A DNA stretch of 38,730 nucleotides. Source: a virus. Shown here piece after piece: positions 7,765-37,470 of this stretch (position 1 is its first letter; each line of letters starts with the position of its first letter). Position numbers and translations under genes: made by a program. The notes below the pieces were generated by a model. The model made no database searches and was not told the origin of the DNA. It saw only the letters and a program-made list of their open reading frames with translations. The stretch is taken from positions 1-38,730 of IMG/VR virus record IMGVR_UViG_3300003322_000567; one strand, 5' to 3'.

Positions 7765-8429
7765 GCATTCCTAAGAACGGTGCCGCCGATACCGGTACTG
7801 CTTCGCCTCGCAATGTTGAAAAAGTGTACGCCAATGATAAAGCCATAGCAATGGAACGTTGGCTACAGGCTCAGAAAGCAGAACGTGAGCAACATACTAT
7901 GAGCCCGATTGAAGGTATGATCCATTACGGCAAGGCATACCGTCATTATTTTAAGTTTGTTGGCCTCGGGCAAGATTTACATGGACTTAATGTGATAGAG
8001 GTGGGGCCAGCGGATTTCCCGGCTTTGGCACATTGTAAAAATTGGGGTACTGCGATCATCGTGGAACCTATGCCTTCCGAGATATTAGAGAATACCTGCA
8101 AAGAACAAAATATTACTCTTGTTACAAAGCCATTTGAGGATTGTATTCCCCTCGACTTCGGCGCTTGGGAAGGTACTACTGAGGTATGGCTCTTTAACGT
8201 GCTTCAGCATGTTATTGACCCTAATTTGTTTATAGGCGTTGCCAAAACTTTCGCTGATCGTATACGCTTCTTCGAACCAATTGATCAGCCTATTACGGAG
8301 TATCACCCTCATAGCTATTCGCTTAAGGATTTCCAAAGCTGGTTTGGCCAGGTGAATCTATATGCCGGTAAATCGGTTGAAGGATTTCATGAGGCTGATT
8401 GTGTTTATGGACTGTGGCAAAAAGAATAG
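7680..8429 (+). CDS. Class I SAM-dependent methyltransferase-like protein
   Basis: This is a 249-aa protein. Residues 1-75 are polar and low-complexity, then a Rossmann-type methyltransferase core follows. Motif I is LNVIEVGPADFPAL (about residues 103-116), a strand IIVEPMP (about 126-132) supplies the acidic residue after beta-2, and the VWLFNVLQHVIDP segment (about 169-181) resembles the motif IV region of Methyltransf_23-like enzymes. It lies within the glycosyltransferase cassette, so O-methylation of a sugar is a reasonable but unproven role. The ATG at 7680 overlaps the upstream frame by 85 bp. A 207-bp gene-free interval with two strong hairpins follows. Confidence 0.68.
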   Translation: MSKEKGNKLKPSGQGSQSGKPDLDAGAIGIPKNGAADTGTASPRNVEKVYANDKAIAMERWLQAQKAEREQHTMSPIEGMIHYGKAYRHYFKFVGLGQDLHGLNVIEVGPADFPALAHCKNWGTAIIVEPMPSEILENTCKEQNITLVTKPFEDCIPLDFGAWEGTTEVWLFNVLQHVIDPNLFIGVAKTFADRIRFFEPIDQPITEYHPHSYSLKDFQSWFGQVNLYAGKSVEGFHEADCVYGLWQKE

Positions 8430-23993: not shown

Positions 23994-24416
23994 ATGCTGA
24001 AACCAATCATAGTAATTTTATGGGGCCTGGCGGCCTGGATCATTCAGATGATTTACTTCATCAAAGATGACCGAACACCTAATAGCGAAGCAGCTAATAA
24101 GGGCTTAAATCTGCGCTGGCACATTGCAGGTGGCGCAATCCATATATGGGGCTATTACCTGGTAGCCCTTCATTTTGGAGCTCATTGGGGCTTGCTTATG
24201 GCTTCCCTTACCTGGCTGCTTTTTGACGGCTTTGTTAACTCCTATATACTCAATAAGGAATTTTTCTATGTGGGTAATACGGCCCTGCTCGATCAGGCTC
24301 AGCAATGGCTTGCTTCTTTAGCGCATAAGGATGCCCGATTAATTTCAGCTATCCTTAAGATAGTATTGCTCATTACGTCACTCATCATTTTAATACATCG
24401 ATATGGCGGATTTTAA
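23994..24416 (+). CDS. Integral membrane protein of unknown function (140 aa)
   Basis: This 140-aa protein has about four hydrophobic segments (LKPIIVILWGLAAWIIQMIY; AGGAIHIWGYYLVALHF; WGLLMASLTWLLFDGF; ISAILKIVLLITSLIILI) and several His residues. It starts 5 bp after the upstream gene and overlaps the endolysin gene by 14 bp, so it is coupled to lysis. Its size is larger than common holins. No family recognised. Confidence 0.6.
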   Translation: MLKPIIVILWGLAAWIIQMIYFIKDDRTPNSEAANKGLNLRWHIAGGAIHIWGYYLVALHFGAHWGLLMASLTWLLFDGFVNSYILNKEFFYVGNTALLDQAQQWLASLAHKDARLISAILKIVLLITSLIILIHRYGGF

Positions 24417-24960
24417 AACGGCTTTAAAGGAAACGCTCGGTATTGAGGGTGGCCTTTCAAACAATCTGAATGATCGGGGCGGCTTAACGTATAAAGGCAT
24501 ATCACGTAAAGCATGGCCAGGTTGGGAAGGGTGGTATTATGTTGATCAATGGCTTAACTCATGGGCCACGATCCCAGAGAGCGAAATAAAGCGGCTTGAT
24601 GAAATGGTTGAAAGGTTCTACAAGGTCAATTTCTGGGATCGGGTAAGTCTTGGCGCATTCGTCAATCAGCGAATTGCGAATGAGATATTTGATACCGGCG
24701 TTAATGCATCAACGAAACAGGGTATCAAATTTTTACAAAGAGCCTTAAACCTGCTTAATCGCAATCAAGTGCTTTACCCCGATATTGACGTTGATGGTAT
24801 TATCGGTATTAAAACATTAGAGCTAACTAACAAACACCCTTACCCAGATGCTTTACTGAAGTTACTGAACGGTTTGCAACTAGCCTTTTACGTGGAGCTC
24901 TGCGAGAAAGACCCATCACAAGAAGAGTTTTTGCGCGGATGGCTCAAGCGTATTTTATAA
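24403..24960 (+). CDS. Endolysin, GH108-type muramidase with peptidoglycan-binding domain
   Basis: This 185-aa lysozyme-like enzyme cleaves the glycan backbone of peptidoglycan. The N-terminal signature is GIEGGLSNNLNDRGGLTYKG (about residues 13-32), with E15 as the expected catalytic acid, equivalent to the ExGGY...DxGG..xxG pattern of glycosyl hydrolase family 108. The C-terminal part (about 92-180), with GIKFLQRALNLLN and DVDGIIGIKTLE, matches the small predicted peptidoglycan-binding domain usually fused to it. There is no signal peptide, so export depends on a holin. It is the last lysis gene and is followed by a strong terminator. Confidence 0.9.
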   Translation: MADFKTALKETLGIEGGLSNNLNDRGGLTYKGISRKAWPGWEGWYYVDQWLNSWATIPESEIKRLDEMVERFYKVNFWDRVSLGAFVNQRIANEIFDTGVNASTKQGIKFLQRALNLLNRNQVLYPDIDVDGIIGIKTLELTNKHPYPDALLKLLNGLQLAFYVELCEKDPSQEEFLRGWLKRIL

Positions 24961-24990
24961 GCCTTACCGATGCCGGAAACCTCCGGAGGT

Positions 24991-25021
24991 AGCCGGGCTC
25001 ACTTTTGGGCCTGGCTTTTTT
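24991..25021 (+). terminator. Strong intrinsic terminator after the endolysin gene
   Basis: AGCCGGGCTC (24991-25000) pairs with GGGCCTGGCT (25007-25016) over 10 bp with two G-T wobbles, loop ACTTTT, followed by TTTTTT to 25021. A 12-bp perfect palindrome ACCTCCGGAGGT lies just upstream at 24979-24990. This probably ends the late transcript. Confidence 0.88.
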
Positions 25022-25059: not shown

Positions 25060-25090
25060 TTTGCGCATATCCCTGAAATGAGTATTTTTG
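25060..25090 (+). promoter_or_regulatory. Bacteroidota-type promoter (TTTG-N19-TAnnTTTG)
   Basis: A -33 element TTTG at 25060-25063 is followed by a 19-nt spacer and the -7 element TATTTTTG at 25083-25090, matching the Bacteroidota consensus exactly. The start of transcription would be about 25096-25098, giving a leader of some 45 nt before the ATG at 25141. It lies just downstream of a strong terminator. A further TAAATTTG overlaps the -33 region at 25056-25063 but has no convincing upstream partner. Confidence 0.72.
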
Positions 25091-25140
25091 ACTCCGAAAC
25101 ACACCCAAATCGGGTATTTTTAAGTACAAAACGCTTTAAT

Positions 25141-25425
25141 ATGACAAAAGAACAAGCTCTCACCGCCCTGGCTGATCTCGTAGCCACTAAACACATCCGC
25201 AAACAATCTCTCGCCTATCAAACTGCATTAGCCGCCATTGAGAACCCCGGAGAGCCTCAGATTTGCGGGAAACACCAAGGATCGGGCAGATTTGCCGGTT
25301 CAAAATCATGGCAATGGCAAACGTCTCAAGCGCTCACAAAAGCAGGCATTCCCCATACCTGTGCCAACGTAGCCCCAAAGGGCGGCCGCGCAGGTAACCG
25401 CATAACCGTAATACTTACAAACTAA
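25141..25425 (+). CDS. Small protein of unknown function in its own transcription unit
   Basis: This 94-aa protein starts at the ATG at 25141, which fits the promoter at 25060-25090; an in-frame ATG at 24970 would place its first 57 codons across the upstream terminator and promoter and is rejected. The N-terminal third is helical (EQALTALADLVATKHIRK), and the rest is Gly/Ser/Lys-rich (QICGKHQGSGRFAGSKSWQW). No family is recognised. It is bounded by a terminator on each side, so it can be controlled independently of both the late operon and the early genes. A regulator or host-takeover protein is a guess only. Confidence 0.68.
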   Translation: MTKEQALTALADLVATKHIRKQSLAYQTALAAIENPGEPQICGKHQGSGRFAGSKSWQWQTSQALTKAGIPHTCANVAPKGGRAGNRITVILTN

Positions 25426-25442
25426 TTATATTGGGTTCACGG

Positions 25443-25487
25443 AGGGTTGCTCCGACAATTCGGTTGTGGAGCTCCCCTAATTTTTTT
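25443..25487 (+). terminator. Intrinsic terminator with extended hairpin
   Basis: The inner stem GCTCC-[G]-ACAA (25449-25458) pairs with TTGT-GGAGC (25464-25472) around the loop TTCGG. An outer AGGG (25443-25446) pairs with CCCT (25475-25478), and AA plus seven T (25481-25487) follow. It begins 17 bp after the stop of the 25141 gene and would limit read-through into the genes that follow. Confidence 0.82.
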
Positions 25488-25544
25488 CCTTCGGCAAACC
25501 TGTTAAGGCACGCATCTACTTTAAAGACCTTTATAAATGACCTT

Positions 25545-25760
25545 ATGAAACAACCGCGCAAACATTGGACAAGCAAGGTCTATAAACAAATTAACGTCGG
25601 TTCAGATACGGTCTTTATGGTTGTAGTAAATGACTTGGAGGATGAACATCTTATTTGGCATTACGAACGCGCTCACGATGAAGAAGATTATGAATATATG
25701 AGCGCTTGTTATATTGAAGCCGAAAATCGGGGTATAACGGCGTATCTTAAACTAATTTAA
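25545..25760 (+). CDS. Small acidic protein of unknown function (71 aa)
   Basis: The ATG at 25545 is chosen; an earlier in-frame TTG at 25431 would place its leader across the terminator hairpin. The product is beta-like in its first half (YKQINVGSDTVFMVVVNDLE) and then acidic and helical (HDEEDYEYMSACYIEAENRG). It opens the run of small genes reaching to 28003. ACCTTTA occurs 11 bp upstream, a motif shared with three other starts here. No family recognised. Confidence 0.6.
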   Translation: MKQPRKHWTSKVYKQINVGSDTVFMVVVNDLEDEHLIWHYERAHDEEDYEYMSACYIEAENRGITAYLKLI

Positions 25761-25782
25761 TCACTTACTAAATACCTTTAAA

Positions 25783-26208
25783 ATGTCACGCAAAACATTA
25801 CTTAGCTTTTCAGGTTACTTTCATCAAATCCCGCGACAAGATGCAACGCAAGATGGGGATATACATATCTCTTTTATTGAAGATCACACTAAAGAATACC
25901 CATTACGAATTCAATCTATGCATGGAAAACCAAGGGGCCGCGCTATTATTAAGAGTGTAACTCTTTCAAAGCTAGAAATTAAGGAGCTAATTAGCATTTT
26001 ACAAAAGATGCTAATTCTCGTACTTATGGTATCAACCATTAGCTGCAATAAAACCATTCCTTTCGCTGGCACCAATCAGTATCCAATTATCATTAAAACC
26101 TGTAAAGATTGGCAGAAAGGCCCGAGGATCGGCAAATACCATGGCCCCGATTCAGTCTGCACAAATTGGAAGCTCGACACCATTTACGGTAAATTTAAAA
26201 ACTACTGA
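25783..26208 (+). CDS. Unknown protein with possible internal lipoprotein start
   Basis: This 141-aa frame appears to consist of two parts. Residues 1-75 are a soluble domain with a helical end (KLEIKELISILQK). From Met76 (ATG at 26008) the sequence LILVLMVSTISC followed by NK looks like a lipoprotein signal with a lipobox cysteine. The rest (QYPIIIKTCKDWQKGPRIGK onward) would be a small periplasm-facing domain. Either the full protein is made, or a second product starts at 26008. No family recognised for either half. Confidence 0.58.
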   Translation: MSRKTLLSFSGYFHQIPRQDATQDGDIHISFIEDHTKEYPLRIQSMHGKPRGRAIIKSVTLSKLEIKELISILQKMLILVLMVSTISCNKTIPFAGTNQYPIIIKTCKDWQKGPRIGKYHGPDSVCTNWKLDTIYGKFKNY

Positions 26209-26210
26209 AT

Positions 26211-26435
26211 ATGAAAGGCTTTTTTATCTTTCTCTTCAACCTAATAAAAATGCTTGTATGGGGCGGCATAGGCTATTCTATTGGTGCGGTTGTGGCTGAT
26301 TGGTATAGAGATAGCTTGCGCGAAACTGGCGGCATTATTATGGCTAAGGATTTACTTGATCTGCAATTGCTCCCTTGGTCTTTTGCTGCAATCGCCGCAG
26401 GTATCGCATTTCGCATAATCTACATTAAAGAGTAA
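26211..26435 (+). CDS. Small membrane protein (74 aa)
   Basis: Two hydrophobic segments (FFIFLFNLIKMLVWGGIGYSI at about 3-23 and PWSFAAIAAGIAFRIIYI at about 55-72) flank a charged loop (ADWYRDSLRETGG). It starts 2 bp after the previous stop and ends 2 bp before the next start, so it is part of the small-gene operon. Function unknown. Confidence 0.6.
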   Translation: MKGFFIFLFNLIKMLVWGGIGYSIGAVVADWYRDSLRETGGIIMAKDLLDLQLLPWSFAAIAAGIAFRIIYIKE

Positions 26436-26437
26436 CT

Positions 26438-26731
26438 ATGAAAAACCCAAATAAAAAGCCTTTCAGCGAGTCGATCAAAATGAGGCCGGAGTATGAGCGT
26501 ACTTGCTCCCTTGGCCTCCGTAAGCTCTTTAAGGAGCATGATATGGCCACTATTGCGGGTGATCCTTCCCGGCATTGCTCTATATGGTTTGTCATTGATA
26601 AAGAGCGTTTCTTCGCCTGGACTGAAAGACGAAAAGACATCTATCAGTACCATTATGTAGTGGAGGTATGTCATACTGAAATTGGCTCCTGCCTGCGCAT
26701 CCATGCTGTGGAGCGGAGTCGCAAACTTTAA
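26438..26731 (+). CDS. Small protein of unknown function (97 aa)
   Basis: A basic, soluble-looking protein. The central part SIWFVIDKERFFAWTERRKD and the later YHYVVEVCHTEIGSCLRIHA have an alternating pattern that suggests a small beta sheet. No family recognised. Tight spacing (2-3 bp) to both neighbours supports it as a real gene of the same operon. Confidence 0.58.
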   Translation: MKNPNKKPFSESIKMRPEYERTCSLGLRKLFKEHDMATIAGDPSRHCSIWFVIDKERFFAWTERRKDIYQYHYVVEVCHTEIGSCLRIHAVERSRKL

Positions 26732-30173: not shown

Positions 30174-30181
30174 CTAATGCA

Positions 30182-30215
30182 GGGGCACCGGAAATAATCG
30201 GTGCTCTTGTTTTTA
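30182..30215 (+). terminator. Intrinsic terminator after the ssDNA-binding protein gene
   Basis: GGGCACCG (30183-30190) pairs with CGGTGCTC (30199-30206) over 8 bp with one wobble and an 8-nt loop (GAAATAAT), followed by TTGTTTTT. It separates the nuclease/ssDNA-binding pair from the polymerase gene, so the polymerase may be made at lower levels. The 43 bp between it and the polymerase start hold no clear promoter. Confidence 0.82.
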
Positions 30216-30257
30216 TATAAATAATCCACTTACGTAAACCTTAAAGACCGTCTCTCA

Positions 30258-37352: not shown

Positions 37353-37359
37353 AATTAAA

Positions 37360-37391
37360 TTTGTACATTTGAGCATTAATCGATAATTTGG
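37360..37391 (+). promoter_or_regulatory. Candidate promoter before the packaging genes
   Basis: TTTG at 37360-37363 is followed by 20 nt and TAATTTGG at 37384-37391, which agrees with the Bacteroidota -33/-7 pattern except for one base in the -7 element. Transcription would begin about 37397, some 75 nt before the terS ATG, and would run directly into the hairpin at 37419-37457. Confidence 0.45.
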
Positions 37392-37418
37392 CTCTCGTCA
37401 TAATACTCTCAAGGATTG

Positions 37419-37457
37419 AGGGGCGGGAGCTCGGTTGCAAGGGCTTCGCCCCTTTTT
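37419..37457 (+). terminator. Terminator or attenuator hairpin before terS
   Basis: AGGGGCG (37419-37425) pairs with CGCCCCT (37447-37453), and an inner AGCTC (37428-37432) pairs with GGGCT (37441-37445). TTTTT follows at 37453-37457. It lies between the methyltransferase stop and the terS start. It may end the early transcript, or attenuate a transcript starting at the candidate promoter just upstream. Confidence 0.8.
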
Positions 37458-37470
37458 AATTCGTACACTT

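Follow-up and report, generated by a model that had tools for sequence, protein, structure and literature searches.

The pL-N-tL1 immediate-early unit of phage lambda consists of a host promoter, a small basic first early gene and a terminator, followed by further early genes. Excerpts of PMC4513864 present p7 of Xanthomonas phage Xp10 as a 7-kDa RNA polymerase antitermination factor. Crass-like phages have an early operon, and in the related phage phi14:2, according to excerpts of PMC8375218, a virion RNA polymerase transcribes the early genes. Promoters of the Bacteroidetes primary sigma factor (sigma-ABfr) are given in excerpts of PMC6847099 as a -33 element TTTG and a -7 element TAnnTTTG, the latter revised to TAHHTTTG; in the numbering of those excerpts the last G of the -7 element is -5, so transcription starts 5 nt after that G. 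Immediate-early phage units are a known kind, but the protein family encoded at the locus described here is undescribed in the libraries searched, and our literature searches returned no paper whose listing describes this promoter-gene-terminator unit.

The window, that is, the whole stretch of DNA analysed, is one virus record of 38,730 bases in IMG/VR. Its 5' part matches head and packaging genes (portal, morphogenesis and protease), and its endolysin gene is followed, in order, by small unknown genes, an exonuclease (DUF2800) and an Enc34-type single-strand-binding protein (SSB), after which come matches to DNA polymerase, primase-helicase, helicase and methyltransferase. Because the best exonuclease matches include Croceibacter phage P2559Y (39% identity), and because of the promoter type, we infer a host in the phylum Bacteroidota. 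Searches for Rfam families and tRNAs found none in the window or in the related loci L129 and L003. The features at the junction of the late and early regions, and one further terminator, are as follows.

24403..24960, + strand: GH108/PG_binding_3 endolysin (lysozyme), the last late gene and the synteny anchor
24991..25021, + strand: intrinsic terminator closing the late (lysis) genes (11 pairs, T6; hairpin -22.0 kcal/mol, T run at 25016)
25060..25090, + strand: Bacteroidota primary-sigma promoter, TTTG-N19-TATTTTTG, an exact match with syntenic exact matches in L003 and L129
25095..25140, + strand: predicted 46-nt leader, placed from the promoter, with GTATTTTTAA in common with L003
25141..25425, + strand: open frame for a 94-residue basic protein of an orphan family, the first early gene
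25443..25488, + strand: intrinsic terminator or attenuator after the 94-residue gene (hairpin 25443-25478, then T7)
30179..30215, + strand: second early-region terminator, at the junction of the SSB and DNA polymerase genes, with no consensus promoter after it

A promoter at the late/early junction

Searches with the lysozyme and the exonuclease reached two close relatives, record 3300003322_000545 (38,240 bases; loci L003, L047 and others) and record 3300024055_000001 (39,670 bases; loci L129 and L206), both syntenic with the window across the lysozyme, exonuclease, SSB, polymerase and helicase genes. Compared with the window, their lysozymes are 72% and 64% identical, their exonucleases 59% and 58%, and their polymerases 65% and 65%, respectively. 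In both relatives a homologue of the 94-residue protein (50% identical across 74 residues in the first and 40% across 109 in the second) follows the lysozyme and its terminator (L003 6590-6615; L129 6424-6447), and syntenic exact promoters lie at L003 6740-6770 and L129 6508-6538.

The first-pass annotation had claimed an exact TTTG-N19-TAnnTTTG promoter, and the site is indeed present at 25060-25090, between the late terminator and the open frame, where it also obeys the revised TAHHTTTG rule. It is the single exact match in the window with both strands scanned (chance expectation 0.20), but at least one exact match also arose in 16 of 100 shuffles of the window, so that uniqueness there, taken alone, is only modest evidence and the position of the site carries the weight. 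Tolerating one mismatch gave 6 matches against 6.77 expected; therefore the exact site alone is exceptional by number. Exactly one exact promoter occurs in each whole record of the three close phages (38.7, 38.2 and 39.7 kb, counting the window), always at the late/early junction, while the reversed pattern, used as a control, occurs in none of them. The 19-bp spacer has 8 invariant positions across the three phages, a value reached by 0 of 20,000 shuffles, although common ancestry alone could explain this conservation. We also looked for another canonical promoter that might drive early or late genes, and found none. By the published numbering, transcription would start at about 25095 (the earlier estimate was 25097), and the same start-site rule gives L003 a leader of 46 nt as well.

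Exact promoters of this kind are not general, because 14 of the 20 loci in an exonuclease-based survey lack one. The other 6, which include the window and its two close relatives, have an exact site with a 19-bp spacer on the + strand at most 3.5 kb upstream of the exonuclease; in the more distant phages L131, L133 and L136 exact promoters lie 477-753 bp before that gene. Locus L131 also has three promoter-like sites with 20-bp spacers (11787, 20296 and 20683) whose -33 ends share TTTGGTGGTTACG and whose -7 ends share CCTATATTTG, and these repeated ends look as if one repressor bound several promoters.

The arrangement found here, in which a host-type promoter precedes the first gene where the late and early regions meet and relatives keep this layout, is the one by which an immediate-early unit would be recognised. 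Since a homologue is kept behind the sole exact host-type promoter in all three close records, the 94-residue gene is probably immediate-early, its product being among the first made on infection.

The 94-residue protein and its family

The frame at 25141-25425 is open and lies after the late terminator, between the promoter and a hairpin-T terminator, as previously described. An in-frame ATG at 24970, which would give 151 residues, was rejected, as translation from it would traverse the terminator and the promoter; the start at 25141 was preferred because the starts of the homologues agree with it.

Scanning viral contigs, genome contigs and phage records with the single protein sequence gave no relative, and members were found only through lysozyme and exonuclease synteny and then through profiles, for a family of five. 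Profile scans added L207 (record 3300037322_000125) and L211 (record 3300020045_005151), whose proteins are 45% identical to each other and align as a group with the three-member group at 96.7% probability (hhalign, E 3.4e-10), shared motif included. The L207 protein scored 30.7 bits, where the best of 2,000 shuffles reached 14.5; with the NDAPKGGK motif masked it ranked only third of 2,001 against the three-member profile, so its kinship leans largely on that motif, and we describe both proteins as probable homologues. A profile search of 12 related records gave matches in only 4, all of them members already identified. A four-member profile matched nothing in genome contigs, with no bacterial or prophage copy, in sets that may omit records very near the window, and the L207 homologue had no match among phages and plasmids. 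Matches of Streptococcus SNF2 proteins to P0003 (E 0.08) were taken as chance.

The upstream signal is more widely kept in its -7 part. TAHHTTTG precedes the initial ATG of the family-gene operon by 43-58 nt in five of five cases, compared with 8 of 113 open reading frames of at least 90 residues, from the same five sources and with the family genes counted in, that have it 25-100 nt upstream. In L207 and L211, TATATTTG precedes the family gene, 43 and 49 nt before the ATG. There is no -33 match in L207, where the gene lies between helicase-like and terminase-like genes (labels by eye), and L211 has TTTT in place of TTTG at -33. The order in L211 is tail-like and endolysin genes, other genes, a terminator at 7851-7874, a promoter-like site and the family gene. 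The earlier suggestion of an immediate-early gene or a regulator thus gains from the conserved site behind the sole exact promoter in three of three close phages and from the -7 element in five of five, but it must accommodate L129, where a 72-residue gene comes between promoter and family gene and the latter is second in its operon.

The absence of a recognised family, also claimed from the sequence, held up in profile and structure searches: Pfam, PHROGs, NCBIfam and PADLOC returned chance-level rows only and no match at their thresholds, sequences in the PDB gave no match (best E 0.18), and fold matches were weak. The proteins are basic, with pI 9.7-10.1 in the four members computed. AlphaFold models from three sequences (pLDDT 80.7, pTM 0.73) and, for L207, from four sequences (pLDDT 71.1, pTM 0.59) agree on two helices and a short strand, then a loop of low confidence with a GSGR/SS motif, a helix and a hairpin, the modelled turn of which is the conserved N-x-AP-x-GG-x-x-G motif.

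The best structural match of the first model was to Fur (Z 5.0) and that of the L207 model to a GTPBP1-ribosome entry (Z 5.9); the best Foldseek E values of the two models were 0.58 and 0.085. The matches listed include Fur, TFE, R3H, Alba, IF3 and RepE, all of which we take to be nucleic-acid binders, mixed with enzymes and designed proteins. For the first model these comprised Fur 2xig (Z 5.0, 5.3 Å, 81 residues), TFE 1q1h (Z 4.2, 4.2 Å, 77 residues) and R3H 1msz (Z 4.2, 3.2 Å, 61 residues), and for the L207 model 8xaq, presumably an Alba-type DNA-binding protein (Z 5.8, 3.1 Å, 63 residues), and IF3 1tig (Z 4.8, 3.9 Å, 71 residues), all weak, as these Z values lie below the tool's meaningful level and may reflect merely a common arrangement of elements. 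The matches are divided between winged-helix and Alba/IF3/R3H-like folds; the Alba, IF3 C-terminal and R3H-like folds and the winged helix resemble our models only weakly, in the order helix-strand-helix-strand-strand, with weak Z values and no sequence match. We take these models as hints of nucleic-acid binding and nothing further, and an early nucleic-acid-binding regulator is our best inference for the protein.

Terminators and the extent of the early operon

Both terminators claimed to flank the gene were found, the late one at 24991-25016 plus its T run and the other as the hairpin at 25443-25478 with T7. The latter folds at -19 to -21 kcal/mol, and 3 of 200 shuffles fold equally well (z -2.2). 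A uniform scan placed strong hairpin-T sites on the + strand of the window at five positions (14605, 25016, 25481, 30210 and 37453), whereas 20 random sequences averaged 1.4 such sites and had at most 4. Hairpins also stand at the junction of the SSB and polymerase genes in all three close phages (30174-30257; L003:11172-11233; L129:11802-11895), with unlike sequences. The description of everything outside the unit as coupled operons is only roughly right, the exceptions being gaps of 84 and 82 nt with extra terminators at about 30210 and 37453.

Just 5' of the gp3-like packaging gene that the window also encodes, the region 37353-37460 holds tandem -7-like elements, TAAATTTG at 37356 and TACATTTG at 37364, about 80 nt before the strong terminator with its T run at 37453. 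Their -33 match is poor, and no comparable -7 element was found ahead of gp3 in L208.

The small genes at 25545-26731, right 3' of the 94-residue unit, form a variable early region: tblastn with a cut-off of E ≤ 1e-3 matched none of them in either L129 or L047, while most genes from 26735 on do match.

We doubt that the unit is strictly private, with promoter and terminator for one gene. In the part of the window 3' of 25488 we found no consensus promoter, every -7 element there having at most 2 of 4 matches at -33, so the early genes need either read-through from the promoter at 25060-25090 or promoters that we could not recognise. The family gene of relatives sits in a shared operon, being the second gene in L129 and having its end overlapped by the next gene in L211 and L207. 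In L003 two genes closely follow it and a weak hairpin (-7.3 kcal/mol) comes after three genes; no strong terminator after the family gene passes any scan in L129, and none is nearby in L211 or L207. Because downstream consensus promoters are lacking and the terminators of relatives are elsewhere or weak, the promoter at 25060-25090 may serve the whole early operon and not the 94-residue gene alone, and we would take the locus for the phage's early-promoter module, not for an isolated gene.

At L129:7150-7240, 3' of the family gene, a cloverleaf-like fold with the T-arm-like GUGGGUUCGACCCCCAC was seen; ARAGORN and Rfam made no call on it, and it is possibly a decayed tRNA or a tRNA-like RNA.

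Possible roles and comparison with known systems

The first phage gene read by host polymerase often redirects or protects the infected cell. The account we favour, and hold with moderate confidence, is that the locus serves a Bacteroidota phage as its immediate-early module and encodes a small nucleic-acid-binding protein that regulates transcription, of phage or host, or RNA. Once the phage has entered, the RNA polymerase of the host, carrying the Bacteroidota primary sigma factor, would read the single consensus promoter after the late terminator, giving a short transcript whose first product would be the 94-residue basic protein, and the terminator or attenuator after the gene would limit transcription into the delayed-early genes.

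First place behind a host promoter, with variable small genes next, would equally suit a protein made first to disable a host function or defence and having no role in phage gene control, and the lack of a PADLOC match is expected for an inhibitor. However, the gene is kept in all three close phages while its neighbours change, which points to a more core function than fast-replaced counter-defence, and the protein is basic in the four members computed; we regard such a host-takeover or anti-defence role as possible, if rather doubtful. A moron-like accessory gene carrying a promoter and a terminator of its own, as the first-pass annotation had also suggested, would fit the compact promoter-gene-terminator unit and the GC content of the gene (0.516, against 0.422), which tops the 19 genes measured, although its GC3 (0.463) is ordinary among them. 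This reading is not favoured, and we consider it very improbable, because place and family are conserved in three of three close phages rather than sporadic, behind a promoter that is the sole exact one in each record.

Two narrower regulatory roles were weighed. An N-like processive antiterminator would let polymerase pass the terminators near 25481 and 30210, so that promoterless early genes are expressed, and a small basic product encoded first in the early operon, strong terminators with no downstream -7 element exceeding 2 of 4 matches at -33, and post-SSB hairpins kept in all three close phages despite differing sequences are consistent with it. Yet no boxA-like element was found in 25095-25488 with two E. 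coli-type patterns, which would miss a Bacteroidota-specific site, the terminator after the gene is not conserved in the four relatives, and leaky terminators or unrecognised promoters explain the layout equally, so that we think this role unlikely. Less likely again is that the protein founds a new antiterminator family acting on Bacteroidota RNA polymerase, an N-like early switch evolved independently of the lambdoid phages; if true, the lambda N problem would have been solved in an unrelated way in a phylum whose sigma factor is unusual. The protein might instead bind the conserved spacer and the leader and shut the early promoter off, in line with the spacer conserved within the three phages, the leader element common to the window and L003, and an ACAC-N7-GTGT inverted repeat seen by eye before the L207 -7 element. 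The leader element GTATTTTTAA is missing from the L129 leader, however, no palindrome common to the members was seen, and spacer conservation may reflect ancestry; autoregulation therefore seems to us improbable. For the immediate-early regulator that we favour, one conserved candidate of an unnamed family, with its promoter and terminators, makes the early switch of this phage group directly testable.

The unit has the same order of parts as lambda pL-N-tL1; it differs in that no boxA-like site was found in the window, and the likeness is one of gene order alone, with no known sequence relation. Xp10 p7, in the excerpts of PMC4513864, is likewise a small phage protein in the role of the antiterminator reading, and is likened to the 94-residue protein by role alone. 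The crAss-like early operon, as far as excerpts of PMC8375218 describe it, also belongs to Bacteroidota phages and is a compact early module of small regulators, but in those excerpts phi14:2 uses a virion RNA polymerase for its early genes, whereas the window carries a host-type promoter. To the sigma-ABfr promoter the window site corresponds exactly, in its elements, its 19-bp spacing and its TAHHTTTG; what is a host promoter class is here phage-borne, as the sole exact copy in the phage record.
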